Below are positions 9,989-33,101 of a stretch of DNA of 33,101 nucleotides, piece after piece. Positions within the stretch are counted from its first letter, which is position 1. The number at the start of each line of letters is the position of its first letter. The DNA comes from Actinomycetota bacterium (GTDB lineage Bacteria; Actinomycetota; Actinomycetes; JACCUZ01). The position numbers were made by a program, and so were the translations under genes. Under the pieces are notes generated by a model. That model was not told the origin of the DNA, ran no database searches, and saw nothing but the letters and a program-made list of their open reading frames with translations. The stretch covers positions 1-33,101 of the forward strand of contig JAVEDJ010000382.1 of the NCBI GenBank assembly GCA_030841025.1. Direction: 5' to 3'.

Positions 9989-10032
9989 GCGCCACTGCGT
10001 GATTCGCCACCAGGCCAGCGCCGGTCGCTCAG
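9985..10032. terminator. possible bidirectional terminator between convergent genes
   Basis: CTGAGCG (9985-9991) and CGCTCAG (10026-10032) are a perfect 7-bp inverted repeat spanning both stop codons, with a 34-base GC-rich loop that could fold further. There is no T-tract. Part of the symmetry simply reflects two convergent TGA codons, so confidence is low. Confidence 0.25.
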
Positions 10033-11282
10033 CGGCAGCCGCCGACTTTCCCGATCTGGCGCAGGCCGGCGATGTCGCCGGCGCCCCACACAGCGGCCGG
10101 CAAGGCGGCGCTCGGGTGCATGACCTGGCTGCGGTTGTTGTAGTGGTCGAGACCGACCACGTGCCCGATCTCGTGCATCAGCACCATGCCGTGCGGGGCG
10201 CCGGTGCCGAACCCTGGAACGGCCGTCTTGGTGAACTGGGTGCTCATGACGACGTAGCCGGTCAGGATGCGCCCGCTGCTGGTGCGGCGCGTGCCGCCGA
10301 CTCCGCCGGTGAACGGTCCGAGCAGTCCGCCGGTCGCCGCCGGCGCAGCCCACGCCACCACCATCCTGTTGGTGCCAGGACCGCCGTAGCCGAGGTGAGG
10401 CACGGCGCGGCTACGGCCGACGTAGCGGAACTTGATGCCACTGACCTGGGTCACCCGGCGGAACGCTTCGCGCAGGTCGCTCATGCCCTGCGCCGGCATC
10501 CCGCGCGGATTGACCTGGTACCGGATCGAGCACGTCTGCCAGTGCGCGGGCCGGGCCTTGGTGCCAGCGAGGGGTCGCCAGGCGCCCGCGGGTCCGGTGC
10601 CGGTGACCGTGACCCGCGCGGTCGTCTCTGCCGTAGCGGCAGCCCAGGTGGCATCGGCCGCCCGAGTCACCCGGAACGTGTACACCCCCGTCTTGGTCCG
10701 TGCCCCGAGCGGCACCGCAACCGAACCGTCGGCCGCGGCGCTGACGGTCGCGACGGTGCGCCAGGCTTCGCTGCCGAACCGCTCCTCGACGAGGACACTT
10801 CCGCCGGGCACCGCGGGGCGCAGGGTGGCGGTCACTGAGAGCTGGCCGCCGGGCGGGACGGCCGTCGGCGACGCGGTCGGCTTCACCGCGACGGCCACCG
10901 CGACGACGACGGGGTTGGAGATCCCCGTGTCGGTGCCCGTCTCGCTGAAGCTCTCGGCGCGCGCGACGTAGGTCGCCCGTCCGGTTGCGGTGTCGGTCAT
11001 GACGGCCCGGCCCGCCGCGTCCGCGACGTTGACGTCCACGACGGTCGTCGTGCCGTCCGCCGCGGTGCGGTGCAGCTCGATGTAGCGCTCGGGACCGGGC
11101 GCGCCCCCAGCGCTGGTCGCGATGGTGAACGTGACGGTGCCGCCGTAGGTCACCTGGGCCGCTGAGGCGGTCAACGTGACGGTGATCGGTCCGTCGGCTG
11201 CGGCGGGCCCGGCCGGGAGCAGCATCCCCAGCAGCGACAGGGCCACCGCCGCAGCCGCCCTGCGGGCCTTGCGCAGCCGCAT
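10029..11282 (-). CDS. secreted metzincin-type zinc protease with Ig-like domains
   Basis: A 417-residue secreted protein. The leader has an RLRKARR n-region and a hydrophobic core, with a probable cut after about residue 29 (PAAA-D). Two beta-sandwich (Ig-like) domains cover about 30-135 and 136-228. The C-terminal protease domain carries HEIGHVVGLDH at 370-380, the metzincin zinc motif HExxHxxGxxH, followed by the Met-turn SQVMHP with Met388. The spacing is that of matrixins and related bacterial Zn peptidases. The ATG is preceded by GGGAGG 8 bases upstream. It is the only gene on its transcript as far as I can see. The substrate is unknown; an extracellular protein or cell-surface target is likely. 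The N-terminal Ig-like domains may serve for attachment. Confidence 0.88.
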   Translation of the reverse strand: MRLRKARRAAAAVALSLLGMLLPAGPAAADGPITVTLTASAAQVTYGGTVTFTIATSAGGAPGPERYIELHRTAADGTTTVVDVNVADAAGRAVMTDTATGRATYVARAESFSETGTDTGISNPVVVAVAVAVKPTASPTAVPPGGQLSVTATLRPAVPGGSVLVEERFGSEAWRTVATVSAAADGSVAVPLGARTKTGVYTFRVTRAADATWAAATAETTARVTVTGTGPAGAWRPLAGTKARPAHWQTCSIRYQVNPRGMPAQGMSDLREAFRRVTQVSGIKFRYVGRSRAVPHLGYGGPGTNRMVVAWAAPAATGGLLGPFTGGVGGTRRTSSGRILTGYVVMSTQFTKTAVPGFGTGAPHGMVLMHEIGHVVGLDHYNNRSQVMHPSAALPAAVWGAGDIAGLRQIGKVGGCR

Positions 11283-17651: not shown

Positions 17652-18692
17652 ATGATGCGTTCGAAGAGGGCGACCGGCGTCGTGGTCGCCGGGATCGCCG
17701 GCGCGCTGCTCGTGAGCGGTTGCAGCAAGAAGGCGGACGACACCGCCACCAGCGGCTCGACCGCCTCGGGGAGCAGCAGCCAGGCGGTCAGCGTCGCGTT
17801 CGTCCCGAAGCTTCAGGGCATCCCCTACTTCGAGGCCATGAACACCGGTGGGCAGGAAGCCGCGACCGATCTCGGACTGAAGTGGATCTACAAGGGCTCC
17901 ACCACGGCCGACCCGGGAGCGCAGACCGACATCGTCAAGTCGCTCATCCAGCAGAAGGTCAGCGCGCTCTTCGTGGCGCCGAACGACCCCGACTCCATGG
18001 CACCCGTCCTCGGGGACGCCAAGGCCAAGGGCATCCACATCGCGACGTCCGACACCGACGCCCCCAACTCGGATCGTGAGGTCTTCGTCAACCAGGCGAC
18101 AGCCGAGGGCATCGGTCAGGCGATCTCCGATGCGCTGCTCGAGAAGATGGGCGGCAAGGGCAAGCTGGCGATCGTCTCCTGTGGTCAGACCGCGGCGAAC
18201 CTCAACTCCTGGATCGACGTCGAGAAGAAGTACATCGCGCAGAAGTATCCGGACGCGCAGATCGTGAGCACCGTCTACGCCGGTGAGGACGAGGCCAAGG
18301 CCGTCTCCATGGCGAAGGACCTGATGAACGCCCACCCCGACCTGACGGGGCTCATCGGGGAGTGCACCTCGTCGGCACCGGGTGTCGCCAAGGCAGTCCG
18401 TGAGGCCGGCAAGATCGGCAAGGTCTTCACCGTCGGCCTCGGCACGCCGCAGGCCATGAAGCCCTACCTGACCGACGGCTCGTCCAGCGCGGCGATCCTC
18501 TGGGACGTCCAGAAGCTCGGCTACCTCACCGCCTGGGCCGGCAAGCAGCTCGCCGACGGCGGCTCGCTCGCTCCCGACGCGAAGCTCAAGGCGAAGGTGC
18601 CGGACGCGACGTACGACGACGCCACCAAGGTCCTGCTCCTCGGTCCCGCGCTGCGGATCACCACGGAGAACGTCGACCAGTTCCAGTACTGA
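17652..18692 (+). CDS. rhaS: rhamnose ABC transporter substrate-binding lipoprotein
   Basis: A 346-residue lipoprotein with a short basic leader and the lipobox LVSGC (Cys24), then a Ser/Thr-rich tether. The mature part is a type I periplasmic-binding (ribose/rhamnose) fold: VSVAFVPKLQGIPYFEAMNTGG, LFVAPNDPDSMAPVL, HIATSDTDAPNSDREVFVNQA, VFTVGLGTPQAMKPYL. The KxxGxPYFxAMNxG pattern is typical of RhaS-type binding proteins. It delivers L-rhamnose to the permeases encoded downstream. GAAGGGA lies about 7 bases before the ATG at 17652; the following ATG at 17655 is a possible alternative. It is the first gene of the operon and is separated from the ATPase gene by a strong hairpin, which should raise its relative mRNA level. 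Confidence 0.9.
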   Translation: MMRSKRATGVVVAGIAGALLVSGCSKKADDTATSGSTASGSSSQAVSVAFVPKLQGIPYFEAMNTGGQEAATDLGLKWIYKGSTTADPGAQTDIVKSLIQQKVSALFVAPNDPDSMAPVLGDAKAKGIHIATSDTDAPNSDREVFVNQATAEGIGQAISDALLEKMGGKGKLAIVSCGQTAANLNSWIDVEKKYIAQKYPDAQIVSTVYAGEDEAKAVSMAKDLMNAHPDLTGLIGECTSSAPGVAKAVREAGKIGKVFTVGLGTPQAMKPYLTDGSSSAAILWDVQKLGYLTAWAGKQLADGGSLAPDAKLKAKVPDATYDDATKVLLLGPALRITTENVDQFQY

Positions 18693-18699
18693 CAGTCGG

Positions 18700-18735
18700 G
18701 TGACTGGGCCGTCCCCCCCGGGGCGGCCCAGTCAC
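18700..18735 (+). terminator. intercistronic hairpin between rhaS and rhaT
   Basis: GTGACTGGGCCG (18700-18711) pairs perfectly with CGGCCCAGTCAC (18724-18735). One G-T and three C-G pairs extend the stem to about 16 bp around a CCCC loop. It starts 7 bases after the rhaS stop. It probably acts as a partial terminator or 3' stabiliser that gives binding protein in excess of the ATPase and permeases. Confidence 0.7.
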
Positions 18736-18751
18736 GCTGGACGGAGGCGAC

Positions 18752-20308
18752 ATGACGACCACGCACCACGAGGGCCACACGGCACGGCCCGCCAGCGACA
18801 CGCCCGTCCTGCGGCTGACGGGGGTCACCAAGCGGTACGGCGGTGTGCAGGCGCTCCGCGGCGTCGACTTCGAGCTGATGCGTGGTGAGGTGCATGCCAT
18901 CGTCGGCGAGAACGGTGCCGGGAAGTCCACGCTCATCAAGATCATCTCCGGTGCCGAGGTCGCGGACCAGGGCGAGATCGAGATCGACGGGCACGGGCTG
19001 GCGTCGGGCAGTACCACGTCGGCACTCGGCGCCGGCATCGCGACGGTCTACCAGGAGCCGCAGCTGTTCGGCGAGCTCACCGTGGCCGAGAACGTCTTTA
19101 TCGGGCGCGAGCTGCGCAACCGCGGCATCGTCGACCGGGCCGGGCAGCGCGAACGGGTCCTCGAGCTGCTCGACCGCATCGGTCTGCATCGCGATCTCGC
19201 CGACGTCCGCGTGGCCGACATGCCGGTCGCCGAGCAGCAGCTCGTGAGCATCGCCAAGGCTCTTTCGCAGGATCCGCGCATCCTCATCCTCGACGAGCCG
19301 TCCGCGATCCTCACCGACCGCGAGATCGAGACCATGTTCTCCGCGGTTCGTGCCATGCGCGACAGCGGCGTGGCCGTCATCTACATCAGCCACCGGCTGG
19401 ATGAGCTCGCCCAGATCACCGACCGGGTGACCGTGCTGCGTGACGGCAGCGCCGTCGCAAGCCGGCCCACGTCCGAGCTTTCGGTGCGCGACGTGGCCGA
19501 GCTGATGGTCGGTCACGCCGTCGACGCCGGTGCCGTGAACCGAACGGTTCCTGACGCCGACCCGGTGCTCCGGGTGGAGGGCCTGACGCGCGTTCCGAAG
19601 TTCGCGGACGTCAGCTTCACGCTGCGGCCGGGGGAGATCGTCGCGATGTACGGGCTGATCGGGTCCGGTGCGGCGGACGTCGCCCGGGCGCTCTTCGGCA
19701 TCGACCCGGCCGACGAGGGGCAGGTCATCGTCGGCGGAAGGCCGGTTGTGCTCGCTGCACCGGCGGACGCCGTACGCAACGGCATCTCGATGCTGCCGGC
19801 GAACCGCAAGGTTCAGGGCGTCTTCGGTCCGAAGAGCATCGCCTTCAACATCTCCAGCGGTCATCTGCGGCTGCTGAGCAAGTGGGGCCTGTGGGTCGAC
19901 CGGTCACGGGAGCGGACCATCGCCACCGACTTCATCCGCCGGATCTCGATCAAGGCACCTGGTCCGGCCACGGCCGTGGACAACCTCTCCGGCGGCAACC
20001 AGCAGAAGGTCGTGCTCGCCCGTCAGCTCGTCGAGCGCCCGCGGATCCTGCTGCTGGAGGAGCCGACCCAGGGTGTCGACGTGGGCGCCAAGGACGAGAT
20101 CCACCGGATCATCCTCGAGCTCGCCGACGGGGGTGGTGCCGTGCTCGTCATCTCCTCGGACCTCCCCGAGGTGCAACAGCTGGCCGATCGCATCCTCGTC
20201 GTCCGCGGTGGCGCGATCACCGCCGAGTTCGCGCGCGGGTCCCGTCAGGCCGACCTGCTCGCGGCGGCGGCCGGCGACGACAGCGACACCGAGACGAGGA
20301 GCAGCTGA
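18752..20308 (+). CDS. rhaT: rhamnose ABC transporter ATP-binding protein (two ABC domains)
   Basis: A 518-residue ATPase with two ABC domains in tandem, as in RbsA/XylG/RhaT importers. Domain 1 has Walker A GENGAGKST at 52-60 and Walker B ILILDEP near 177-183. Its signature region is VAEQQ rather than LSGGQ. Domain 2 has a degenerate Walker A (GLIGSGAADVA), a good LSGGNQQKV signature and a Walker B reading LLLEEPTQGVD, with Glu in place of the usual Asp. One complete ATP site per protein is typical of this family. The ATG at 18752 begins after the rhaS hairpin with GGAGGCGAC upstream. The stop overlaps the permease start by one base (TGATG). Confidence 0.92.
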   Translation: MTTTHHEGHTARPASDTPVLRLTGVTKRYGGVQALRGVDFELMRGEVHAIVGENGAGKSTLIKIISGAEVADQGEIEIDGHGLASGSTTSALGAGIATVYQEPQLFGELTVAENVFIGRELRNRGIVDRAGQRERVLELLDRIGLHRDLADVRVADMPVAEQQLVSIAKALSQDPRILILDEPSAILTDREIETMFSAVRAMRDSGVAVIYISHRLDELAQITDRVTVLRDGSAVASRPTSELSVRDVAELMVGHAVDAGAVNRTVPDADPVLRVEGLTRVPKFADVSFTLRPGEIVAMYGLIGSGAADVARALFGIDPADEGQVIVGGRPVVLAAPADAVRNGISMLPANRKVQGVFGPKSIAFNISSGHLRLLSKWGLWVDRSRERTIATDFIRRISIKAPGPATAVDNLSGGNQQKVVLARQLVERPRILLLEEPTQGVDVGAKDEIHRIILELADGGGAVLVISSDLPEVQQLADRILVVRGGAITAEFARGSRQADLLAAAAGDDSDTETRSS

Positions 20309-21306
20309 TGGCCGCCGCCAACCCGGGCATCGCCACGCGACGCCGCCGACCGGTGGCCCGCGCGGTCGAGGGCCAGGAGCTGGCACTGATCATCGTGCTG
20401 GCCGCACTCTGGCTGATCCTGTCCATCAGCACCGACACGTTCCTCACCTCGTCGAACCTGAGCAACCTGCTCTACTCGGTCGCGCCGATTGCCATCATCG
20501 GCATCGGGATGACCGCCGTCATCGTCACGGGCGGCATCGATGTCTCGGTCGGCAGCGGCGCGGCGGTCGTCATGGTCGTCGTGGCCAAGGCGATCCGCGA
20601 CAGTGGTCTCCCACTGGCGCCCGCCCTCGCCCTCGGCCTGGCTGTCGGGCTGGTCTTGGGTGTCATCAACGGCGTGCTCGTCGCCTACGGCGGCATCCAT
20701 CCGATCATCGTCACCTTCGGGACCCTGAACCTGTACCGGTTCCTCGCGCTGCGGCTGTTCGAGAACAAGCAGGTGACCGGCGTGCCGGACACCTTCAGCG
20801 TGCTCGGCGGTGGCAAGAGCGGAGAGACGCTCGGTGTGCCCAACGCGTGGTGGCTGGCCTTGGTGCTGGCCGCGGTGATGTGGAGCTACATGAGGTACTG
20901 GGCCACCGGCCGGCACTGGTACGCCCTCGGCAACGATGCCGCTGCGGCCCGCTTGGCCGGCATCCGGGTCAAGAGTCGCACGATCGCTGCTTACGCCCTC
21001 ACCGGTCTGTTCGTGGGGCTGGCCGGCATCGTGCTCATCGGCAGCGGCGGCCTCGTCCAGCAGAACGCCGGCACCGGGCTCGAGCTGCGCGTCATCGCCG
21101 CCGTCGTCATCGGTGGCACCAGCATCCTCGGGGGACGCGGCAGCGTGCTGGGCACGTTGCTCGGCGCGCTGCTCGTCGGGACCGTCACCAGCGCGATCAC
21201 CCTGCTGGGCTGGCGCAGCGAGCTCACGGAGCTGTTCATCGGTGTGTTCATCCTTGTCGCAGTCGGGGTCGACCTCGTCCGCGAGCGGCGCAGGAGGGCG
21301 AGATGA
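20308..21306 (+). CDS. rhaP: rhamnose ABC transporter permease 1
   Basis: A 332-residue membrane protein of the BPD_transp_2 (RbsC-like) permease family with about eight to ten transmembrane segments. Family marks include IVTGGIDVSVGS after the third segment, GVLVAYGGIHPIIVTFGT, and GRHWYALGNDAAAARLAGIRV, the cytoplasmic loop that contacts the ATPase. The late AAVVIGGTSILGGRGSVLGTLLGALL is also diagnostic. It starts inside the ATPase stop codon (TGATG), and its own stop overlaps the next permease's ATG (ATGA). Both junctions imply coupled translation of a 1:1 permease pair. Confidence 0.9.
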   Translation: MAAANPGIATRRRRPVARAVEGQELALIIVLAALWLILSISTDTFLTSSNLSNLLYSVAPIAIIGIGMTAVIVTGGIDVSVGSGAAVVMVVVAKAIRDSGLPLAPALALGLAVGLVLGVINGVLVAYGGIHPIIVTFGTLNLYRFLALRLFENKQVTGVPDTFSVLGGGKSGETLGVPNAWWLALVLAAVMWSYMRYWATGRHWYALGNDAAAARLAGIRVKSRTIAAYALTGLFVGLAGIVLIGSGGLVQQNAGTGLELRVIAAVVIGGTSILGGRGSVLGTLLGALLVGTVTSAITLLGWRSELTELFIGVFILVAVGVDLVRERRRRAR

Positions 21307-22400
21307 CTACGGACACGACGACCGCACCTCCCGAACCGGGCCCCGGGCTTGCGGACCGCGGACGACAGAGCCCGATCCGCCGGGCCATCGACCTCGTCCT
21401 GTCCGAGCGGGTTCCACTGCTCGCCGTACTGCTCGTGCTGGTGGTCGGCTGGTTCTTCCTCCTGAGCAACCAGGGCTATCTCGTGGCGCCCTACGACTCC
21501 GACTACCTGTTCTCCGCGCTCGACTCGCTGGTCCCGCTCTGTCTGCTGGCGTTCGCCGAGCTCGTGGTCATCGTGTCCGGCCGCGGCGGCATCGACCTGT
21601 CCGTGGGATCGATCGTCAGTCTCTGCGGGATGGCCTTCGGCTTCATGGTCGGCCTGTGGAACTGGCCCGTGCTCGCGGCCCTCGTGGTGACAGTCGCGGT
21701 GGGGGCGGCTCTGGGAGCGATCAACGGACTGCTGGTGGCCTACCTCGGCTTCCCGGCGCTGATCGCGACCTTGGCGACCTTCTACGCGTTCGGCGCGCTT
21801 GCCCTGCTCAGTCACAACAATGCGCCGATCTCGACCAAGCCGATCCAGGACGTCCACTCGCTGACGCGTACGGTGAGCCTCCCGCTCGGTGACCAGGTGC
21901 CCGACGTGCCGCTGCAGGTGCTGACATTCCTCCTGCCGGTGGCGGTCGTCGTGTGGCTCGTTGTCAACCGGACGGCCTACGGCCGCAAGCTGTACGCGAT
22001 CGGCACGAACGACATCGCGGCGCGGTTCGCGAACATCCCCGTCCGTCGGTCCCGGTTCCTGGCCTACGTGGCCTCGGGAGCTCTCTCGGGCCTCGCGGCT
22101 GTCGTGATCGTCGCGCAGTTTGCATCGGCGCGCCCCGACTCGGGCAGCGTCGGCAACGGGATGGCGTTGCCCGCCATCACGATCGCGGTGCTGGGCGGCG
22201 TGGCCATCGTCGGCGGTGTGGGACGGGTGGCGGGCGTCATCCTCGCCGGCCTGCTCGTCGTGTGGCTGAACGCGGGCATCCTGCTCGCGTTCGAGGGGTC
22301 CGACGGCAGCCAGTTCCAGCTGTTCGCGCTCGGTGCCCTGCTCGTGCTGTCCGCTCTGCTCAATGCCTACAGCCTGCGCCGTGGCCGCGGCGCCGGATGA
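21303..22400 (+). CDS. rhaQ: rhamnose ABC transporter permease 2
   Basis: A 365-residue permease of the same RbsC-like family as its neighbour but clearly diverged. The hydrophilic N-terminus is about 35 residues. Marks are IVSGRGGIDLSVGSIVSL, GLLVAYLGFPALIATLAT, AYGRKLYAIGTNDIAARFANIPVRR and IAVLGGVAIVGGVGRVAGVILAG. It probably forms a heterodimeric channel with the preceding permease; I assign rhaP and rhaQ by order only. It overlaps the preceding gene by four bases. After it comes a 49-base gap with a fresh ribosome-binding site before the isomerase gene. Confidence 0.88.
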   Translation: MTTDTTTAPPEPGPGLADRGRQSPIRRAIDLVLSERVPLLAVLLVLVVGWFFLLSNQGYLVAPYDSDYLFSALDSLVPLCLLAFAELVVIVSGRGGIDLSVGSIVSLCGMAFGFMVGLWNWPVLAALVVTVAVGAALGAINGLLVAYLGFPALIATLATFYAFGALALLSHNNAPISTKPIQDVHSLTRTVSLPLGDQVPDVPLQVLTFLLPVAVVVWLVVNRTAYGRKLYAIGTNDIAARFANIPVRRSRFLAYVASGALSGLAAVVIVAQFASARPDSGSVGNGMALPAITIAVLGGVAIVGGVGRVAGVILAGLLVVWLNAGILLAFEGSDGSQFQLFALGALLVLSALLNAYSLRRGRGAG

Positions 22401-22449
22401 CCTTTCTGGACCACTCCGCCGCGCTTGCTGAAGATAGAAAGGCAACACC

Positions 22450-23616
22450 GTGAACGACACCACCGACGTGAAAGCTCAGCTGCGCCAGCAGCGCATCGAG
22501 ACGCCGTCGTGGGGGTACGGCAACTCCGGCACCCGATTCAAGGTCTTCGCGCAGGAGGGCGTACCACGCACGCCGCAGGAGAAGATCGACGACGCCGCGG
22601 TGGTTCACCGCTTCACCGGTGTCGCACCGACCGTCGCGTTGCACATCCCTTGGGACAACGTCGACGACTTCTCGGAGCTGGCGAAGTACGCGATCGCTCA
22701 GGGCGTCGAGCTGGGCACCGTGAACTCGAACGTCTTCCAGGACAACGACTACAAGCTCGGCAGCGTGACGAACCCCGAGCCTGGCGTGCGGCGCAAGGCT
22801 ATTGATCATCTGCTGTCCTGCATCGACGTCATGGACCTCACCGGATCCCGCGACCTCAAGCTGTGGTTCTCCGACGGCACCAACTATCCGGGCCAGGACA
22901 GCATCCGGGAACGGCAGGACCGCCTCGCGACGGCACTGGCCGAGGTCTACGCGCGGCTCGCCGACGACCAGCGCATGGTGCTCGAGTACAAGCTGTTCGA
23001 GCCGGCGTTCTACCACACCGACGTGCCGGACTGGGGCACGTCGTACGCGCACTGCTTGGAGCTGGGGCCCAAGGCCCAGGTGGTCATCGACACCGGCCAC
23101 CACGCACCGGGCACCAACATCGAGTTCATCGTGGCCTTCCTGCTGCGGGTCGGCCGGCTCGGGGCGTTCGACTTCAACTCCCGCTTCTACGCCGACGACG
23201 ACCTGATGGTCGGCTCCGCCGACCCCTTCCAGCTGTTCCGGATCCTGCACGAGATCGTCCAAGGAGAAGCGCTGCGTCCCGAGTCCGGGATCACCTTCAT
23301 GCTCGACCAGTGTCACAACATCGAGGCCAAGATCCCGGCCATCATCCGGTCGGTGATGAATGTCCAAGAGGCCACGGCGAAGGCCTTGTTGGTCGACGCT
23401 GCTGCTCTCGCCTCCGCCCAGCGCGAGGGTGACGTGCTCGCGGCGAACGCGGTGCTGATGGACGCCTACAACACGGACGTGCGACCGCTGCTCGCGGAGC
23501 TGCGGGAAGAGACGGGCCTGGACCCTGATCCGATCGCCGCCTACCACCGGTCCGGCTACTTCGATCGGATCAGGGAAGAGCGGTCCACCGGCCAGCAGGC
23601 AGGGTGGGGTGCCTGA
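22450..23616 (+). CDS. rhaI: L-rhamnose isomerase (RhaI type)
   Basis: A 388-residue TIM-barrel isomerase converting L-rhamnose to L-rhamnulose. It resembles the Pseudomonas stutzeri RhaI type rather than E. coli RhaA: QRIETPSWGYGNSGTRFKVF at the N-terminus, LHIPWD, EYKLFEPAFYHTDVPDWG with its metal-ligand Glu, VVIDTGHHAPGTNIE and FDFNSRFYADDDLMVG. These supply the usual Glu/Asp/His metal ligands. RhaI-type enzymes have broad activity on aldoses. The GTG at 22450 is preceded by AGAAAGG. The stop overlaps the next gene's start by one base (TGATG). It supplies the substrate for the rhamnulokinase encoded two genes later. Confidence 0.93.
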   Translation: MNDTTDVKAQLRQQRIETPSWGYGNSGTRFKVFAQEGVPRTPQEKIDDAAVVHRFTGVAPTVALHIPWDNVDDFSELAKYAIAQGVELGTVNSNVFQDNDYKLGSVTNPEPGVRRKAIDHLLSCIDVMDLTGSRDLKLWFSDGTNYPGQDSIRERQDRLATALAEVYARLADDQRMVLEYKLFEPAFYHTDVPDWGTSYAHCLELGPKAQVVIDTGHHAPGTNIEFIVAFLLRVGRLGAFDFNSRFYADDDLMVGSADPFQLFRILHEIVQGEALRPESGITFMLDQCHNIEAKIPAIIRSVMNVQEATAKALLVDAAALASAQREGDVLAANAVLMDAYNTDVRPLLAELREETGLDPDPIAAYHRSGYFDRIREERSTGQQAGWGA

Positions 23617-25667
23617 TGAGCCAGGCCAGCGGCGACGGAAGCGTCGCAACCGAGCTCGTGGCGCGCAGCAACCGCCTCGGTGCCGACCCGCGTAACACCA
23701 ACTACGCGGGTGGCAACACGTCGGCCAAGGGCACGGCACTCGACCCCGTGACCCAGCTGCCGATCGAGCTGCTCTGGGTCAAGGGATCGGGAGGCGACCT
23801 CGGCACGCTGACCGAGGCCGGGCTCGCCGTTCTCCGGCTGGACCGGCTGCGGGCCCTCGTCGACGTCTATCCAGGCGTCGACCGCGAGGACGAGATGGTG
23901 GCCGCGTTCGACTTCTGCCTGCACGGCAAGGGCGGCGCGGCGCCATCGATCGACACCGCGATGCACGGCCTCGTCGAGGCCGACCACGTCGACCATCTGC
24001 ATCCCGACTCCGGCATCGCCGTGGCGACGGCCGCGGACGGCGAGGCACTCACGAAGCAGATCTTCGGCTCGCGTGTCGCCTGGGTGCCGTGGCGGCGTCC
24101 CGGCTTCCAGCTCGGGCTCGACATCGCGGAGGTGCGCCGCAGCAACCCGGACGCGATCGGGGTCATCCTCGGGGGCCACGGCATCACGGCGTGGGGAGCA
24201 ACCAGCGACCAGTCCGAGGCGAACTCCCTGTCCATCATCAGGACGGCCGAGCGTTACATCGCCGAGTACGGCAAGGCGGAGCCGTTCGGTGCCGAGCTTC
24301 CTGACCACCGCCCGCTCAGCGAGCAGGAGCGGCGTGCGCGGGCAGCGGCGCTCGGGCCGGTCATCCGCGGGCTCGCTTCGACGGACCGCGCACAGGTAGG
24401 GCACTTCACCGACAGCGCGGAGGTGCTCGACTTCCTCTCCCGGGAGCGGCATCCGGAGCTCGCGGCGCTCGGCACGTCCTGCCCCGACCACTTCCTCCGG
24501 ACAAAGGTCCGGCCGATGGTTCTCGACCTGCCACCCACCGCCGCTCTGGACCAGGTCGTCGACCGCCTGCGCGAGCTGCACACGGCTTACCGCGAGGCCT
24601 ACCGCGCCTACTACGAGCGCTATGCGGACGACTCCACGCCGCCCATGCGTGGCGCGGATCCGGCCATCGTCCTCGTGCCGGGCGTGGGCATGTTCAGCTT
24701 CGGTGCCAACAAGCAGACCGCCCGGGTGGCGGGGGAGTTCTACGTCAACGCCATCAACGTGATGCGAGGCGCCGAAGCCATCTCGACGTACGCACCGATC
24801 GACGAGCGTGAGAAGTTCCGCATCGAGTACTGGGAGCTCGAGGAGGCCAAGCTCCGGCGGATGCCCAAGCCCAAGCCACTTGCGACCCGCGTGGCGTTCG
24901 TCACGGGCGCAGGTTCGGGGATCGGGCGGGCGATCGCGCACCGCCTCGCCGCCGAAGGCGCCTGCGTCGTCGTGGCCGATCGTGACGAGGAGTCTGCGAG
25001 GAACGTCGCTGAAGAGATCGGCAGCACCGACACGGCCATCGCCGTCACGGCGGACGTCACCGACGGGATCGCGGTCGCCGCGGCTTTCCGCGAGGCGGTG
25101 GTCGCCTTTGGCGGTGTCGACCTCATCGTCAACAACGCCGGCCTGTCGATCTCCAAGTCGCTCCTGGAGACCACCGAGGACGACTGGGACCTCCAGCACG
25201 ACGTCATGGCCAAGGGCTCATTCCTCGTCTCCCGGGAAGCAGCCCGCATCATGACCGAACAGCAGATGGGTGGAGACATCGTCTACATCTCCAGCAAGAA
25301 CTCGCTGTTCGCCGGGCCGAACAACGTCGCGTATGGCGCCGCAAAGGCGGACCAGGCGCACCAGGTCCGCCTGCTCGCCGCCGAGCTCGGTGAGCACGGC
25401 ATCCGCGTCAACGGGGTCAACCCGGACGGCGTCGTGCGCGGATCAGGCATCTTCGCCGGCGGCTGGGGTGCGCAACGCGCCGCGGTGTACGGCGTGCCGG
25501 AGGCGGAGCTCGGTGCGTACTACGCGCAGCGAACCCTGCTGAAACTGGAGGTGCTTCCGGACCACGTCGCCAACGCTGTCTTCGTGCTCACCGGCGGAGA
25601 GCTGTCGCACACGACAGGTCTGCACATCCCAGTGGACGCCGGGGTAGCTGCCGCGTTCCTTCGGTGA
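23616..25667 (+). CDS. rhaEW: bifunctional rhamnulose-1-phosphate aldolase / short-chain (lactaldehyde) dehydrogenase
   Basis: A 683-residue fusion. Residues about 1-415 form a class II aldolase/adducin-type domain with zinc-ligand candidates His127 and His129 (HLHPD) and His188 (GGHG). It cleaves L-rhamnulose-1-phosphate to DHAP and L-lactaldehyde. Residues about 424-683 are a short-chain dehydrogenase: cofactor motif TGAGSGIG at 430-437, NNAG at 506-509, and the catalytic Ser near 559 with Tyr573 and Lys577 (YGAAK). An acidic VADRD after strand two favours NAD. The dehydrogenase part would oxidise lactaldehyde to lactate, as described for Bacillus RhaEW. The ATG at 23616 has GGTGGGG 6 bases upstream. 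Its stop overlaps the kinase start by four bases (GTGA). Confidence 0.92.
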   Translation: MSQASGDGSVATELVARSNRLGADPRNTNYAGGNTSAKGTALDPVTQLPIELLWVKGSGGDLGTLTEAGLAVLRLDRLRALVDVYPGVDREDEMVAAFDFCLHGKGGAAPSIDTAMHGLVEADHVDHLHPDSGIAVATAADGEALTKQIFGSRVAWVPWRRPGFQLGLDIAEVRRSNPDAIGVILGGHGITAWGATSDQSEANSLSIIRTAERYIAEYGKAEPFGAELPDHRPLSEQERRARAAALGPVIRGLASTDRAQVGHFTDSAEVLDFLSRERHPELAALGTSCPDHFLRTKVRPMVLDLPPTAALDQVVDRLRELHTAYREAYRAYYERYADDSTPPMRGADPAIVLVPGVGMFSFGANKQTARVAGEFYVNAINVMRGAEAISTYAPIDEREKFRIEYWELEEAKLRRMPKPKPLATRVAFVTGAGSGIGRAIAHRLAAEGACVVVADRDEESARNVAEEIGSTDTAIAVTADVTDGIAVAAAFREAVVAFGGVDLIVNNAGLSISKSLLETTEDDWDLQHDVMAKGSFLVSREAARIMTEQQMGGDIVYISSKNSLFAGPNNVAYGAAKADQAHQVRLLAAELGEHGIRVNGVNPDGVVRGSGIFAGGWGAQRAAVYGVPEAELGAYYAQRTLLKLEVLPDHVANAVFVLTGGELSHTTGLHIPVDAGVAAAFLR

Positions 25668-27163
25668 CCACCGTGTCGCGAACGGTGGACGTCGCTGCTG
25701 CGGACCTGGGGGCATCCAGCGGTCGCGTCATGGTCGGCCACGTGGGTGCCGATCGACTCGACCTCACCGAGGTGAACAGGTTCGTCAATCGGCCGGTGCG
25801 CGTGGCTGGAACGTTGCACTGGGACATCCTCGGGCTGTACGCCGGCGTACTCGACGGACTGCGGGCCGCCGGCCGGCAGCTCGGCCGGCTCGACGGCGTC
25901 GGCGTTGACGCCTGGGCGGTCGACTACGGCCTGTTGGACGCGGCGGGAAACCTCCTAGGCAACCCGGTGCACTACCGCGACAGCCGCACCGACCGCGTCA
26001 TGGATCGGCTGGTGGCCGAGGCAGGCGCGGAAAAGCTCTACGAGCTGTCGGGGTTGCAGTTCCTGCCGTTCAACACCATCTATCAGCTCGCGGCCGCCCG
26101 GGACGACACACAGCTGGCGGCGGCCCATCGACTCCTTCTGCTGCCCGACCTCATCGGATACTGGCTCACGGGGGAGCAGGTCGCCGAGATCACCAATGCC
26201 TCGACGACCGGCCTGCTGGACGTGCGCGCGCGCACCTGGTCCCTTGACCTGGCACGCCTCGCGGGGACGTCGGCCGCCCTGCTTCCTCCGCTGGTCGAGC
26301 CGGGAGCTCGGGTCGGCGAGCTGCAGAAGGAGGTGCTGGAGGCGACCGGGTTGCCCGGACCGGTGCCGTTGTTCACCGTGGGATCACACGACACGGCCTC
26401 GGCGGTCGTCGGCGTACCCGCAGCGACCGAGCGGTTTGCCTATATCTCCTGTGGGACGTGGTCGCTCGTCGGCCTGGAGCTCGACGCGCCGGTGCTGACG
26501 GCGCAGAGCAGGGAGGCCAACTTCACCAACGAGCTGGGCGTCGATGGCACGGTTCGCTACCTGCGCAACGTGATGGGCCTGTGGCTGCTGCAGGAGTCGT
26601 TGCGGGTGTGGAACGTGGCGGGGCTGCCGGCCGACCTCGAGACCCTGCTGCACGCCGCTTCCCACGTGCCTGCCTTCTCGACGGTGGCCCCTGTCGACGA
26701 CCCAGTTTTCCTGCCACCGGGGGACATGCCGGGCCGCATCGCAGACATCGCCCGGCACACCGGTCAGGCGCCGCCGCAGAGCCAGGCAGAAACCGTCCGC
26801 TGCATTCTGGACAGCCTCGCTCTCGCCTACCGCGCCACGGTTCGTGATGCGCAGCGACTCTCGGGGCAGGACGTGGACGTGGTGCACCTGGTCGGCGGTG
26901 GTGCGCGCAACGAGCTGCTCTGCCAGCTGACGGCTGATGCCTGCGGCCTACCGGTCGAGGCCGGGCCGGTCGAGGCAGCAGCACTAGGCAACGTCCTGGT
27001 GCAGGGCCGGGCCCTTGGCGTGACCCCTGACGACCTCGCAGGGATGCGGGCGCTGTTGCGTTCCACGCAAGCAATCCGCCGCTACGAGCCGTCGGGACGG
27101 GCCGCCGACTGGGCGGCGGCCGAGGCCAGACTCCAACGACCGACTGACAGGGAGACCGCATGA
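25664..27163 (+). CDS. rhaB: L-rhamnulokinase
   Basis: A 499-residue FGGY-family sugar kinase that phosphorylates L-rhamnulose at O1 with ATP. The N-terminal phosphate-binding motif is AADLGASSGRVMVG, a rhamnulokinase hallmark. Then come VDAWAVDYGLLD with the substrate-region Asp, HYRDSRTD, LPFNTIYQL, ISCGTWSLVG, the VGSHDTASAV active-site segment carrying the catalytic Asp, and HLVGGGARNELLCQ near the C-terminus. Length is normal for the family (about 480-500). The GTG start overlaps the aldolase/dehydrogenase stop, and the stop overlaps the next ATG (ATGA), so kinase and aldolase are coupled. That is sensible, because rhamnulose-1-phosphate should not accumulate. Confidence 0.93.
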   Translation: MTTVSRTVDVAAADLGASSGRVMVGHVGADRLDLTEVNRFVNRPVRVAGTLHWDILGLYAGVLDGLRAAGRQLGRLDGVGVDAWAVDYGLLDAAGNLLGNPVHYRDSRTDRVMDRLVAEAGAEKLYELSGLQFLPFNTIYQLAAARDDTQLAAAHRLLLLPDLIGYWLTGEQVAEITNASTTGLLDVRARTWSLDLARLAGTSAALLPPLVEPGARVGELQKEVLEATGLPGPVPLFTVGSHDTASAVVGVPAATERFAYISCGTWSLVGLELDAPVLTAQSREANFTNELGVDGTVRYLRNVMGLWLLQESLRVWNVAGLPADLETLLHAASHVPAFSTVAPVDDPVFLPPGDMPGRIADIARHTGQAPPQSQAETVRCILDSLALAYRATVRDAQRLSGQDVDVVHLVGGGARNELLCQLTADACGLPVEAGPVEAAALGNVLVQGRALGVTPDDLAGMRALLRSTQAIRRYEPSGRAADWAAAEARLQRPTDRETA

Positions 27164-28011
27164 ACCTCCTCGGCGTGCACGCACTCGTCTGGGCAGGCGA
27201 CTGGACCGAACCGTCTGCCCGCTTCGCCATCGAGTCGACCCGCGAGGTCGGGTTCGACCTCATCGAGCTCGCGCTGCTCGACCCGGCCGCCACGGACGTC
27301 GCGATGACGAAACGGCTGCTCGCTGACAACGGCCTCGCCGTCACGTGCTCTCTCGGACTCGACCAGGACACCGACGTGTCCAGCGAGGACCCGACCGTCG
27401 TGGCTCGTGGACGGGATCGTCTCGCGGCGGCGCTCGAGGTGGCGCACGGCATCGGCGCGACCCACCTGTGCGGGGTGCTCTACTCCGCCTTGCGCAAGTA
27501 CTCGCAGCCGGCCAGCCCGCGATCGCGCGAGAACAGCCGGGCCGCGATGGCGTGGCTTGCCGAGCAGACGTCGGCTGCCGGGGTGACGCTCGCGCTCGAG
27601 GTGGTCAACCGTTACGAGACCAACATCGCCAACACCGCAGCGGAGATGCTCGCCTACATCGATGAGTCGGGCGCCGACATCGCGCTTCACCTCGACAGCT
27701 ATCACATGAACATCGAGGAGAACGGGCTCGTGGAGCCGGTGCAGCAGGCCGGGCCCCGCCTCGGCTACCTGCACATCGGGGAGTCGCACCGCGGCTACCT
27801 CGGCACTGGCAATGTCGATTTCCGCTCACTGTTCGCCGCTGTCCGCGACAGCGGCTACGCCGGTCCCGTGACCTTCGAAAGCTTCTCGTCGGCCGTTGTG
27901 CACCCGAGTCTCAGCAACGTCCTTGGCGTCTGGCGCAACCTGTGGGAGGACAGCCGCGACCTTGCCGCTCATGCGCACGCATTCATGGCGGAGGGGTTGG
28001 CCCCTCGATGA
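27160..28011 (+). CDS. ketose 3-epimerase-like TIM barrel (DTE/DPE family)
   Basis: A 283-residue sugar phosphate isomerase/epimerase-type TIM barrel. Metal ligands can be placed at Glu147 (ALEVVNRYETN), Asp179 (LHLDSYHMN), His205 (YLHIGESHRG) and Glu240 (VTFESFSS). Their spacing (32, 26, 35) is nearly that of D-tagatose/D-psicose 3-epimerases (33, 26, 35), and the loop wording around each is the same. It therefore probably epimerises a free ketose at C3, with the two glutamates as acid/base. Inside a rhamnose operon the natural substrate could be L-rhamnulose or a rare ketose fed into the pathway. It is coupled to rhaB before it and rhaM after it by ATGA overlaps. Confidence 0.82.
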   Translation: MNLLGVHALVWAGDWTEPSARFAIESTREVGFDLIELALLDPAATDVAMTKRLLADNGLAVTCSLGLDQDTDVSSEDPTVVARGRDRLAAALEVAHGIGATHLCGVLYSALRKYSQPASPRSRENSRAAMAWLAEQTSAAGVTLALEVVNRYETNIANTAAEMLAYIDESGADIALHLDSYHMNIEENGLVEPVQQAGPRLGYLHIGESHRGYLGTGNVDFRSLFAAVRDSGYAGPVTFESFSSAVVHPSLSNVLGVWRNLWEDSRDLAAHAHAFMAEGLAPR

Positions 28012-28376
28012 CGTCGCAGCCCCGTCGCGTGTGCTTCACCCTGCAGGTCCACCCGGCCAGGCTGGAGGAGTACCGCACCAGGCACCGTGAGATCTGGCCG
28101 GAGATGCTGGAGGCGTTGGCCGCGACGGGGTGGGACGACTACTCCCTGTTCCTCCGCGAGGACGGCCTTCTGGTGGGCTGTCTCGTGACCGAGGACTTCG
28201 ACGCGGCGAAGGCGGCGATGGAGGCGACCGACGTCAATCGTCGTTGGCAGGCCGAGATGGCGCCGTACTTCGTCGGCCTGGCCGACGGACGACCTGACGC
28301 CGCGGCGCAGCCGCTACGCGAGATCTTCAACCTTCGCGACGCACTGGCGAGCATCCCTGGTCACGACGTGGCTTGA
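28008..28376 (+). CDS. rhaM: L-rhamnose mutarotase
   Basis: A 122-residue RhaM-family protein that interconverts the alpha and beta anomers of L-rhamnose. The N-terminus reads RRVCFTLQVHPARLEEYRTRHREIWPEML, with the conserved Tyr and His of the active site. It continues GWDDYSLFLREDGLLVGCLVTED, and MEATDVNRRWQAEMAPYF matches the family's closing helix. It is slightly longer than the 104-residue E. coli protein, because of a C-terminal extension (LREIFNLRDALASIPGH). The ATG overlaps the epimerase stop by four bases. It is the last gene of the operon and is followed by a large hairpin terminator. Confidence 0.92.
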   Translation: MTSQPRRVCFTLQVHPARLEEYRTRHREIWPEMLEALAATGWDDYSLFLREDGLLVGCLVTEDFDAAKAAMEATDVNRRWQAEMAPYFVGLADGRPDAAAQPLREIFNLRDALASIPGHDVA

Positions 28377-28478: not shown

Positions 28479-31400
28479 TCAACGCTTCTTGCTGGGCCGC
28501 TTCTGCTTCTTTGCCTTGACCATCTTGACCGTCGTGACCTTGCTTGTGGTCGCCCGGCTGTTCTTGTCGCCGGCGAAGCGCGCAGTGACCCTGATGCCCG
28601 TGGCCCGTGCGGGGAGCTTGACCTTGACGGCGAACTTGCCCTTCTTGTTCGTCGTGGTCCGGACCTTCCTCACCCCGACCGGCTTGCCCTTGCCCTTCTT
28701 GAACGTGACGGTCACCGTGATCGGCGCCCCGGCCCGCGCGGGCGTGAGGGTGCCGGAGAGGGTGACCGCTCCGCCGGCTGCGGGCGCCTGAGCGACCCGA
28801 GCCAGCGTCACCGTGGACGCGACGGCGGTGGGCTGCCCAGCGTCGGGCGCCGCCGCAGCGACCTCCGGCACAGCCGGCGGCGTCACGTCGTAGGAGTAGC
28901 TCACCGTCGTGCTGTTGCCCGCCGCGTCGATGGCCACGGCGTTGACCGTCACCGGTCCGATCACCTGGATAGGAGCGGTGTAGGCGGTACCGTTCGCGCT
29001 CGGCGCCGACCCGTCAACGGTGTAGTAGATGCGCGCCGTTGCGTCGTCCGAGGTCAGCGTGACGTCGTACGGGCCTGGAAGAGTCGTGACCCCGTCACCC
29101 CCGGGCGACGCTGTCAGCGACGGCGCCATGAGGTCGAGCGTGTAGCTGCCCGTGAGGACATCGCTCTCGACTCCGTCCTTGGTGGCCAGCGCCTTCAGCG
29201 TCCACGATCCGTTGTCGGCAAACCGGACCGGACCGGCGTAGATCTCGCCGTGGGTGTCCGTCGGTGTGGAGCCGTCGGTCGTGTAGCGGATGGTCGCGCC
29301 CGGCTCGCTCGCCTTCAGGGTCACCGAGAACGGGTCCTTGAACAGTCCCGTCCGCGGCGAGGCAGTGAGCCCGAGACCGACGATCTTGCCCAGGATGACG
29401 AACTCGTCGGTCTCGCCGATCGACTGCGCACCGCCGACCAGCGGCACGCCGGAACCATTGGTGACCTGCTCGACCTTGAAGAGGTTCTGGTCAAGCGGGC
29501 TGCCCACGACCTTGTGCGGGGTGGCTCCGTCGCCGACGAAGCCGTCAGGGGCCGCCGGGGCCACGTCCGGATCCCACTGCAGGAACGGCCCGATCTGACC
29601 CTTCAGGGTCCGCGACCAGTCACAGTTGGCCGAGAGGCAACCCATGTCGTCGGTGTAGAAGATGGTGCCGTCCGCCTCGGCGGTGAGCGTCTCGACACCG
29701 TAGGGGTACGTGACTCGGTACCGCGCGTTCGGCACGAGCTGGTCGACGCGGATCCGGATCCGGTTGAACGCCACCTGGTCGCCGCGTCGTGCTGCGCCCG
29801 CGGCAAAAGCCGCCTCGGCGGCCATGGTGAGCCGGGCCCTCCGGCCGGTCCCGTCGTCCGGCAGGCTTGCGTCACCGGACCACCAGAACGCCTCGTCCGG
29901 GAAGTTGTCCGGGAAGGACAAGGGCTTGCTCGGGTCCGGCAGTGCGCCGGCAGCCGGGCACGTCGCGATATCGACGCAGAGCCCCAGGCGCACCGAGGTC
30001 TGCGCGCCATTTCCGAAGTCCTGGAACCATGCGGGGAAGCCGTTGGCCGGGTCGACCGGTCCGACTGCCTTCAGGTTCTGGATGACGTAGTCCAGCTGCG
30101 CCAGCGGCCCGCCGACCTCCGTGCCGTCGGCCGCGGAGCCGAGCACGGCGACCGCACGGACACCGGTTGACCTCTGCACCCGGAACCGGTCGGTGTAGCG
30201 GAACGTGCCTTCACGTGGCGCGCCGTCGGCGGCGTACGCCGGGGTGCTGCCGTTGACGGTGTAGTAGATCCGCGTGCCGGGGGCTGACGACAGCGTCACC
30301 CACTGACCACCCTGGTGCTCGCCCGGTGCGGGCGAGGCGGTGACGGCCGGCAGGTCCTGGTCGATGGTGTACGAGTTCTCGTAGACCTCTGACCTCGTCG
30401 ACAGGTCCGTGTTGTCGACCGCGACGAACTTCAGCGTCGTCGTCGTCCCGACGGTGACCGGCGTGCTGCCGTCACCCGCGAGTCGCGTGGTGCCTCCACC
30501 AGGGGAGTGGTCGTCGTTGATGGTGGGTGCCGAGCCGTCCGTCGTGTAGTAGACGTCCGCCTCGTCCGGGAACGAAGCCTGCAGCCGGACGGCCTTGGTC
30601 GTCTCGTACGCGCCGGACGGCACTGAGGCGGTAGCCCGCAGCTTGGCGATGCGTCCCTGGACGGCGAACAGGTCGGTGCGGATGGAGTCCACGCCCGGGC
30701 CGCCCACGTCCGGGCCGTCGATCTGGAAGTAGTTCGTGCCGGTCGGGCTGCCGATCACGGTGTGCTCGACCGTCGGGTCTCCCACGTGGCCCACAGGTGC
30801 GGCTGGTGCGGCCGCAGGGTCCCAACGGAGGAACGGTCCGACGCGACCGTCGTACGACTCCTCCCAGGTGCACGGCGCCACCAGGCAGCCGATGTCCTCG
30901 GTCATCCGGAGGCGACCGCGATCGTCGGACGTGATGACCTCGACGCCGTACGGGTGCGTGACGGTGTACTGCGTGTCGGGCCGCATGCTGTCGGCACGGA
31001 CCCGCAGGCGCGCGAATCCCACCTGCTGTCCGACCTGGGGCGATCCGAGGCCGCCGAATGCTGCCTCCTGTGCGAGGACGAGCAGTGCCGTCCCGCCGAT
31101 GGGCCGGGTGATGGACGCCTCACCGGACCACCAGAAGGCCTCGTCCGGCCAGTTGTCGGGGAGGGACGCCGGCGCACCCGGGTTGGGCAGGTCGCCCACC
31201 ACGGGGCACAGGACCGGGTCGTCGATGCACAGCTCGAGGCGCGTGGTCTCCACGCCGTTCTCGCCCGTCGTCGTGCGGTCCTGGTACCACGTCGGCCAGC
31301 CGGTGCCGGGGTCGACCGGGCCGTGGTTCACGAGCTTGCCCTTGGGTCGCCTCTCGACGATGTCGATGAGGTACTTCTCGGTGAAGACGCCGGACTTCCC

Positions 31401-32969
31401 GGCAGCGTTCACAGCGATGAACTTCAGGACGGTGCTGTCCTCGAGCAGGATCGGCGCGGTGTAGAGGGTTCCAGTGACGAGGCTGGCCGTCGTGGTCCCC
31501 GACTCGGCGTCAGTGACGAAGTGGACCTCAGGATTGGTCCCGTCGGTCGTGTAGTAGACCTGCGCGTTGTCCTCGCTCGGCGTGAGCGTGATGTGCTGCG
31601 CGGCGACGAAGGATCCACCGGCGGGCTCAGCACTCGCCGTTGGTGCCTTCACCGTGTATGCGGCGGTGGCGATCTCGGACTTGTTGCCGGCGGCGTCGAT
31701 GGCTATTGCCTTCAGCACGACGGCGTCACCGGCCACGTTTCCGTTGATGACGACCGGCGTGCTGTACGCCGTGCTGTCCTGGGTCGGGGTCGACCCGTCC
31801 AGCGTGTAGAAGATCCGTGGACTCGTGTCCTTGGCATCGGTGGTCGCGAGCGTCACGGCAAGCGCTGACGTGTAGGTGCCCTCGGGCTTGTCGACCGTCG
31901 GCGCATCGGGCGCCAGGTTGTCGACGACGTACGACCAGGTGAAGACCCTGGACTTCGGGGAGCTCGACGTGTCGGCCACTACTGCGCTGAGCGTCGTGCC
32001 GTCACCGACGGCGATCGGGTCGGTGAAGCTGGCCACGGTCTCCGGCACGAGTCCGTCGACGACCGGCGAGTCGCCGTTCACCGTGTAGCGGATGGCTGTG
32101 TCCGGCTCGGAGCTCACGAGCGCGACGCTGGGAGCCTCCTGGTAGGACCCCGACCCGGGGGTGGCCACGATGTGGGGTGTGGCGAGCTTTCCCTGGACCG
32201 TGAAGTCATGCGTCTCCACGATCTTCTCGGGCTGCTCCAACGGCGCACCCTGCGCGTCCGCGATGCGCTCCACCCGGACGAAGTTGGTGCCCAGCGGGCT
32301 GCCGGTCACGCGGTGCGGTGTGATGGCGTCACCGAGGTAGCCCTCCGGTGCGCCCGAGGTCGAGCGCAGGAAGGGAGGCACTGAGCCCAGCATCCCCGGC
32401 TGCCCGAAGTCGCACGGTGCAACGGTGCAGCCCACGTTGACTGTGTCGTTGATCTGACCATCGGTGACGTCGATGTCCGCCACGCCGTAGGGGTGGGTCA
32501 CGCGATAGGTGCCGGCACTGGGCACGTCCTGCTTGAGCCGGATCCGGGTGAACATGACCGGAGCCCCGGTGTCGGGGTCTTGCGCCGCCTCGGTCGCGAA
32601 GACGAAGACGCCCCCGTCAACGTTTGCGGTCGCGTTGAACCAGAACGCCTCGCCTCCCGCCGCGGCGAGGTCTGCGGGCGTGGCCAGGCAGCGGGTCGTG
32701 CCGTCCAGGCAGAGGTCGAGGCGCTGGCCGACGGCGTCCTGTACCCAGAACGGGTAGCCCGTCGTCGGGTCCACCGGACCGACGCCGGTCTCGTCGCCGG
32801 TGACCGCATCGGCCTGCGACGGCGGCGTGGCGGTGCCGAGCGCCACGGCTGCGACGAGCAGCGCGACGAGGACGACGCGACCCTGCGCCAGCGGACGCGC
32901 GACAGCGAGTGGTCGCTGGCGTCGTCCGCTGAACGAATGCAGGCTCGACAGAGCAAAGCGGTTCATCAT
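28479..32969 (-). CDS. giant secreted protein: three four-Cys modules, seven chitobiase-C-type repeats, basic tail
   Basis: About 1,496 residues, exported by a leader with a long basic n-region, a hydrophobic core at about 32-45 and a probable cut near residue 53 (SQA-DA). Three copies of an unrecognised ~200-230-residue module (about 64-262, 550-774 and 970-1196) begin GPVDPxxGxPxWxQD. Each has two close cysteine pairs; those 12 cysteines are the only ones in the protein. Between them lie seven CHB_HEX_C_1-like beta repeats centred on Y-T-x-[DN]-G-[SDT]-x-P: three, then two, then two. A last Ig-like domain (about 1379-1484) ends in KAKKQKRPSKKR. There is no LPxTG or C-terminal membrane anchor, so it is released or held by charge. 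Starts at 32969 or 32966 (ATGATG) are possible. It could bind surface polymer or be a matrix protein; no catalytic motif is visible. Confidence 0.85.
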   Translation of the reverse strand: MMNRFALSSLHSFSGRRQRPLAVARPLAQGRVVLVALLVAAVALGTATPPSQADAVTGDETGVGPVDPTTGYPFWVQDAVGQRLDLCLDGTTRCLATPADLAAAGGEAFWFNATANVDGGVFVFATEAAQDPDTGAPVMFTRIRLKQDVPSAGTYRVTHPYGVADIDVTDGQINDTVNVGCTVAPCDFGQPGMLGSVPPFLRSTSGAPEGYLGDAITPHRVTGSPLGTNFVRVERIADAQGAPLEQPEKIVETHDFTVQGKLATPHIVATPGSGSYQEAPSVALVSSEPDTAIRYTVNGDSPVVDGLVPETVASFTDPIAVGDGTTLSAVVADTSSSPKSRVFTWSYVVDNLAPDAPTVDKPEGTYTSALAVTLATTDAKDTSPRIFYTLDGSTPTQDSTAYSTPVVINGNVAGDAVVLKAIAIDAAGNKSEIATAAYTVKAPTASAEPAGGSFVAAQHITLTPSEDNAQVYYTTDGTNPEVHFVTDAESGTTTASLVTGTLYTAPILLEDSTVLKFIAVNAAGKSGVFTEKYLIDIVERRPKGKLVNHGPVDPGTGWPTWYQDRTTTGENGVETTRLELCIDDPVLCPVVGDLPNPGAPASLPDNWPDEAFWWSGEASITRPIGGTALLVLAQEAAFGGLGSPQVGQQVGFARLRVRADSMRPDTQYTVTHPYGVEVITSDDRGRLRMTEDIGCLVAPCTWEESYDGRVGPFLRWDPAAAPAAPVGHVGDPTVEHTVIGSPTGTNYFQIDGPDVGGPGVDSIRTDLFAVQGRIAKLRATASVPSGAYETTKAVRLQASFPDEADVYYTTDGSAPTINDDHSPGGGTTRLAGDGSTPVTVGTTTTLKFVAVDNTDLSTRSEVYENSYTIDQDLPAVTASPAPGEHQGGQWVTLSSAPGTRIYYTVNGSTPAYAADGAPREGTFRYTDRFRVQRSTGVRAVAVLGSAADGTEVGGPLAQLDYVIQNLKAVGPVDPANGFPAWFQDFGNGAQTSVRLGLCVDIATCPAAGALPDPSKPLSFPDNFPDEAFWWSGDASLPDDGTGRRARLTMAAEAAFAAGAARRGDQVAFNRIRIRVDQLVPNARYRVTYPYGVETLTAEADGTIFYTDDMGCLSANCDWSRTLKGQIGPFLQWDPDVAPAAPDGFVGDGATPHKVVGSPLDQNLFKVEQVTNGSGVPLVGGAQSIGETDEFVILGKIVGLGLTASPRTGLFKDPFSVTLKASEPGATIRYTTDGSTPTDTHGEIYAGPVRFADNGSWTLKALATKDGVESDVLTGSYTLDLMAPSLTASPGGDGVTTLPGPYDVTLTSDDATARIYYTVDGSAPSANGTAYTAPIQVIGPVTVNAVAIDAAGNSTTVSYSYDVTPPAVPEVAAAAPDAGQPTAVASTVTLARVAQAPAAGGAVTLSGTLTPARAGAPITVTVTFKKGKGKPVGVRKVRTTTNKKGKFAVKVKLPARATGIRVTARFAGDKNSRATTSKVTTVKMVKAKKQKRPSKKR
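28872..29381 (-). repeat. chitobiase-C-type beta repeats R6-R7
   Basis: Two tandem repeats with cores IRYTTDGSTPT and IYYTVDGSAPS, followed by an Ala/Pro linker and the last Ig-like domain with the basic tail. Confidence 0.75.
29382..30062 (-). repeat. four-Cys module copy 3
   Basis: It begins GPVDPANGFPAWFQD, then RLGLCVDIATC, PDEAFWWSGDAS, TYPYGVETL, GCLSANCDWSR, IGPFLQWDP, HKVVGSPLDQNLF and FVILGKI. In DNA, 29872-29919 matches 31120-31167 of copy 2 at 43 of 48 positions. Confidence 0.78.
30078..30647 (-). repeat. chitobiase-C-type beta repeats R4-R5
   Basis: Two tandem repeats with cores VYYTTDGSAPT and IYYTVNGSTPA, between module copies 2 and 3. Confidence 0.72.
30648..31322 (-). repeat. 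four-Cys module copy 2
   Basis: It begins GPVDPGTGWPTWYQD, then RLELCIDDPVLC, PDEAFWWSGEAS, THPYGVEVI, GCLVAPCTWEE, VGPFLRWDP, HTVIGSPTGTNYF and FAVQGRI. It is closest to copy 3. Confidence 0.78.
31356..32183 (-). repeat. chitobiase-C-type beta repeats R1-R3
   Basis: Three tandem Ig-type repeats with cores IRYTVNGDSP, IFYTLDGSTPT and VYYTTDGTNPE. Each is followed by TxLxAxAxDxAGNxS-like strands. They link module copies 1 and 2. Confidence 0.75.
32184..32780 (-). repeat. four-Cys module copy 1 (most diverged)
   Basis: It begins GPVDPTTGYPFWVQD and carries RLDLCLDGTTRC, GEAFWFNATA, HPYGV and GCTVAPCDFG. It ends with the GSPLGTNF..FTVQGK pattern. It lacks the PDEAFWWSG form shared by copies 2 and 3. 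Confidence 0.75.
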
Positions 32970-32998
32970 GGCCCCCCCAAGGGCTTGGGCAGGGGGCC
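32970..32998 (-). promoter_or_regulatory. hairpin enclosing the ribosome-binding site of the giant protein gene
   Basis: On the minus strand GGCCCCC (32998-32992) can pair with GGGGGCC (32976-32970). Part of the same G-run can instead join a TTGGG/CCCAA inner stem. The G-run is the only ribosome-binding-site candidate and the stem ends right at the ATG, so folding would hide the start. The rest of the leader, out to 33101, shows no promoter boxes I trust. I looked for a c-di-GMP-I riboswitch, but its conserved core is absent. Confidence 0.45.
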
Positions 32999-33101
32999 TC
33001 AGCACCCTCTGCCTTTCCGGGACCTTTGTCTCTCGTCGGCGTGACATATGCGTATCAGCCCCGATTTGAGAAGGGGTTGGGGCACCGCATGGGCGACGTC
33101 G

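Follow-up and report, generated by a model that had tools for sequence, protein, structure and literature searches.

What is the cysteine-bearing unit that occurs three times in a long, putatively secreted protein of an Actinomycetota bacterium, and what might it do at the cell surface? The protein is encoded near one end of a 33,101-nucleotide contig, which was analysed over its whole length and is called the window here. Its open reading frame lies on the minus strand (28479..33047) and codes for 1522 aa counted from its ATG. An internal ATG at residue 27 (position 32969), the right end given in a first-pass annotation, leaves 1496 aa and is likely the true start, standing directly before a signal-like hydrophobic stretch. 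As read from the sequence, this putative signal-peptide segment (aa ~27-79; 32811..32969, minus strand) is LVALLVAAVALGTATPPSQADA.

Layout of the window protein

The first-pass annotation had described a protein of about 1,500 residues with a triplicated unit, and this description stands. Three homologous modules of about 200-227 aa are present, modules 1 and 2 being 44-51% identical to module 3 when aligned to it, with 67 invariant columns; Smith-Waterman scores among the three range from 290 to 538, compared with a mean of about 36 and a maximum of 73 for shuffled sequences. All 12 cysteines of the protein do fall inside the modules, as had been claimed: at 113/120 and 207/212 in module 1 (aa 90-288; 32184..32780), at 607/614 and 721/726 in module 2 (aa 576-800; 30648..31322) and at 1024/1030 and 1137/1142 in module 3 (aa 996-1222; 29382..30062), all on the minus strand. 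The modules are acidic, with a pI of about 4.4.

Alternating with the modules are seven stretches that had been read as chitobiase-C-type repeats in the order 3+2+2. Pfam profiles recover both their kind and their order (PF13290/PF13287, E 3e-85 and 2e-77), with three CHB_HEX_C_1/Fn3_assoc repeats at 31332..32183, two at 30072..30647 and two at 28848..29381, again on the minus strand. The PF13290 score of 280.7 bits, against a Pfam gathering score of 22 bits, identifies them as CHB_HEX_C_1. The likeness to CHB_HEX_C_1/Fn3_assoc proteins is confined to these repeats, which form the stalk of the window protein, whereas the four-cysteine modules between them match neither family. NCBIfam matches of the protein to DUF499 and OmpL47 arise from the repeats, not the modules, and were discarded. 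The protein ends in a basic Ig-like domain, read from the sequence (aa ~1401-1522, 122 residues, pI 12; 28482..28847, minus strand), which relatives also have in a less basic form. No sortase signal was seen at the C-terminus, in agreement with the earlier reading, but the "lysine/arginine-rich tail" reported there is the end of this Ig-like domain. Elsewhere in the window, a 417-aa open reading frame (10029-11282, minus strand) has a signal-peptide-like start and Ig-like sequence.

The module is a new and widespread extracellular domain

An undescribed extracellular module had been suspected, and a profile search and a structure prediction had been proposed as checks; the results of both favour that suspicion. 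Searches of Pfam, NCBIfam and PDB sequences with the window modules gave no family match, and no named family was matched by the 58 module sequences that we collected: against Pfam-A, NCBIfam and PDB sequences they gave stray marginal matches only. No Pfam-A or NCBIfam match exceeded its curated cut-off, the best being to Big_9 (E 9e-4, in 2/58). The PF13290 profile of the stalk repeats matched none of the 58, and modules also occur in proteins without CHB_HEX_C_1/Fn3_assoc repeats. The AlphaFold model of module 3 is confident (pLDDT 94.3, pTM 0.90) and almost all strand. A Foldseek search with this all-beta model against PDB and BFVD returned nothing at E<=0.001, the best hits having E 0.066 and 0.055 and TMq <0.3. 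A second, less confident model (pLDDT 79), of the proteobacterial-type L010 module with its following domains (L numbers are our handles for loci), has adhesin and Ig tandems as its best matches. The Ig-like domains that follow the module in proteobacterial-type members resemble the Ca-stabilised stalks of bacterial adhesins (e.g. PDB 4p99); for the module proper, no fold match was significant.

Could the module carry a metal site or catalytic activity of its own? Its near-invariant residues include P120 and a polar set (D15, E57, E83, Q96, R101, R103, D139 and N193) which might suggest as much, as might a very weak fold likeness to Cu,Zn superoxide dismutase barrels. That likeness was rejected, however: with TMq <0.3 and E >0.09, the matches amount to no relationship. 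Nor is there a conserved set of His or Cys ligands, H183 being present in 32/58 modules and the cysteines sometimes absent, and we regard an own metal site or activity as very improbable.

The cysteines had been suggested to form two local disulfides per module, and this is supported for one pair. Both cysteines of pair 1 are present in 50/58 modules and both are absent in 8/58, with no module having just one; a pair kept or lost only together supports a disulfide. Pair 2, in contrast, occupies the window's position chiefly in members of actinobacterial type and lies elsewhere in other lineages, and two members have no cysteine at all. Pair 2 is therefore lineage-specific, and the four cysteines do not define the family.

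The module was found at 73 loci in the 45 genomes or plasmids examined; the relatives include 37 loci from a species-level genome collection and three plasmids, together with a genome from the window's own genus and another from its class. Carriers include Actinomycetota (Arthrobacter, Rubrobacter, Actinomycetospora, Acidimicrobiales), Chloroflexota, Nitrosomonas and other Betaproteobacteria, Azospirillaceae, Deltaproteobacteria, Myxococcales, Verrucomicrobia and Patescibacteria-type MAGs. Among sampled Actinomycetota 9/297 have it, the window's own genome included. In a sample of 399 Pseudomonadota genomes it occurs in the seed genome only (0/398 others), so the family is rare there, and viral contigs and phage records gave no relative. 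The module often stands directly after the signal peptide and is followed by Ig-like, PKD, Big_9, FG-GAP, lamin-tail, SLH or CHB_HEX_C domains. In one Nitrosomonadales locus (L023, 10302-15602), a 1767-aa RTX/cadherin-like protein is encoded directly downstream of the module gene.

A tree built from 108 modules places window module 1 with the first module of the L004 protein (support 0.99), and window modules 2 and 3 with that protein's second and third modules. In the related proteins of L005, L007, L077, L092, L093 and L099, the first module falls with window module 2 and the second with window module 3; module 2 also groups with the first module of Arthrobacter-type two-module proteins. Each window module is thus grouped by position with modules of other genomes, which means that the copies separated before those genomes did; a recent triplication is rejected, and the triplication is ancient.

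Enrichment of module genes beside secreted copper oxidase genes

The first sign of a functional context came from two annotated plasmids in which the gene for a multicopper oxidase (MCO) adjoins the module gene, in one of them with an SCO protein encoded between the two. MCOs in further module loci were confirmed by motif scan and Pfam. When the positions of PF07731 and of the module were listed across the 45 genomes or records, at least 14 of the 73 module loci had an MCO (PF07731) within 8 kb, a lower bound, against 1.22 expected (Poisson-binomial P ~7e-12, a value that assumes uniform placement, related genomes not being independent). Six more loci have an MnxG-type MCO gene within 8 kb, which brings the figure for any MCO to at least 20/73. 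Among the matches listed, 53/73 loci lack an MCO at that distance, the window, L004 and the Nitrosomonas loci being among them; some of the 53 lie at contig ends. The MCO-linked loci occupy many separate places on the module tree. No Cu-oxidase domain was found in any module protein scanned, the MCOs being separate neighbouring genes.

These counts bear on what the first-pass annotation had offered as a function, a modular adhesin or polymer-binding scaffold. A generic surface-adhesion or polymer-binding module, linked to MCOs through nothing more than surface genes sharing loci, would fit the all-beta fold, the usual company of stalk-type repeats (CHB_HEX_C, PKD, Big_9, SLH, FG-GAP), the resemblance of the following domains to adhesin and Ig tandems, and a window gene that abuts a putative sugar-catabolic operon. 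Big_9 surface genes, however, do not behave in this way: their loci without the module in the same genomes, a control that consists of one family, have an MCO within 8 kb in 1/42 cases only (Fisher P 4e-4 against 20/73). Compared with carbohydrate-binding families, the 58 modules gave one marginal match (CBM_35, E 0.04, one member), and the model of module 3 gave none by fold. The operon, whose genes we read as L-rhamnose uptake and catabolism with a mutarotase (17652..28376, plus strand), is convergent with the module gene rather than co-oriented, and this putative rhamnose operon is not part of the module system. Nothing tested thus points to a glycan, whereas the neighbourhoods point to secreted copper oxidases, and adhesion or polymer binding seems to us a rather unlikely function of the module.

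The neighbouring oxidases are of several types. The MCOs of L097 (2037 aa) and L016 (1939 aa) match MnxG (PDB 9bxa) at E 2e-132 and 7e-160, and those of L006, L008 and L087 resemble them; the best matches of the L074 and L012 MCOs are bilirubin oxidase and CotA. In a genome of the window's genus (G001), a single-module gene is divergent from a bilirubin-oxidase-like MCO gene (L074) and a two-module gene stands beside cytochrome c/di-haem peroxidase, DUF1775 and CopC-CopD genes, with an MnxG-type gene 20 kb away (L073). No single substrate follows from neighbours of such different types. SCO genes lie beside the module gene in eight loci, and CusF, CopC/CopD, DUF1775 and di-haem peroxidase genes are further recurrent neighbours. 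Module genes are thus strongly enriched next to secreted MCO genes of several kinds and other copper and haem redox genes.

The two-module protein of L007, encoded 2 kb from an MCO, has SLH domains, as does that MCO; SLH is found in the L005 module protein as well and likens these proteins to S-layer-homology anchored surface proteins, although the window protein has no such domain. A Rubrobacteraceae-type MnxG-like protein (L087) and the L004 module protein have a common C-terminal Ig region (E 2e-27). In an Anaerolineales genome, a 4529-aa open frame (L097, 11889-17999, G351:C4) holds an MnxG-type MCO, Big_9 and a di-haem peroxidase-like stretch. In a betaproteobacterial cluster (L033, L034, L035, L037, L038), two or three tandem module genes stand behind a CusF-like gene, and in most of these loci MCO and SCO genes also precede the module genes.

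The neighbouring oxidants belong to two unrelated kinds, the MCOs and the di-haem peroxidases, which raises the possibility that the module protein is itself the substrate: cross-linking by the neighbouring MCO or MauG/CCP peroxidase would then yield an oxidatively hardened surface layer. The module has conserved aromatic positions (W12, F59, W60, Y115) that might serve as targets, but W60 is often Tyr, Y121 is variable, the pattern would suit a structural core equally well and no precedent was found. We think such cross-linking quite improbable.

A possible surface partner of secreted copper oxidases

From the gene association, which is measured, we infer that the module acts as a surface partner or scaffold. 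It would be an extracellular all-beta module without catalytic function, stabilised by a disulfide and carried by a stalk, and it would partner secreted copper oxidases, a proposal to which we give even chances. The module would keep the secreted oxidase, its metal substrate or its oxide product near the cell surface, while CHB_HEX_C, Ig, PKD or SLH repeats would serve as stalk and anchor. By extension from its relatives, the window protein may be such a partner too, its three modules forming a multivalent scaffold that would serve MnxG-type or other MCOs encoded elsewhere in the genome.

No MCO is encoded on the 33 kb window contig itself. A stretch of 54 bp separates the module gene from the contig edge (position 33101), for which an overlap with the genome's other contigs was looked for and not found. 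MnxG-type genes do occur on three other contigs of the genome, C16, C45 and C205 (L113, L114 and L115), with open frames of 1960, 1741 and 2198 aa; the window's organism may be an unrecognised Mn oxidiser. One of the three genes precedes an RTX-repeat-like protein and another a CopC-like protein. MnxG-type genes occur in 17/45 of the module genomes or records compared with 9/297 of the sampled Actinomycetota. Module and MnxG genes also tend to occur together within the Actinomycetota sample (Fisher P 1.5e-5), but we place no weight on this because one family (f45) dominates both lists.

Accessory partners of MCOs have a precedent. MnxG of the Bacillus Mnx complex depends on two accessory proteins, MnxE and MnxF, that have no likeness to any characterised protein, and the complex is described as the only characterised MCO requiring accessory proteins (PMC5622069). 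The MnxEFG Mn(II) oxidase of Bacillus sp. PL-12 is brought to mind by the MnxG-type MCOs encoded beside several module loci. By description, however, MnxE and MnxF are copper-binding subunits of about 12 kDa, whereas the module has about 200-230 aa and is secreted within long stalk proteins. We found no described partner of the MCOs treated here in the open-access literature, which does not prove that there is none. More broadly, and only tentatively, the modules could be accessory domains of secreted MCOs, a hitherto unrecognised family spread over at least six phyla that would bring MnxG-type or laccase-like enzymes, or else their metal oxides, to the surface. Such a family would supply a part now missing from the Mn oxidation of bacteria and from related metal redox outside the cell, an idea we consider doubtful as it stands.

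Even if the MCO link fails, the module is an extracellular domain new to description, confidently modelled and without a relative of solved structure. Its recognition would allow many proteins now called "hypothetical" or "Ig-like domain" to be named. As a widespread domain found beside genes for MnxG-type and other secreted copper oxidases, it is a concrete and testable candidate for what holds or assists such enzymes at the cell surface.
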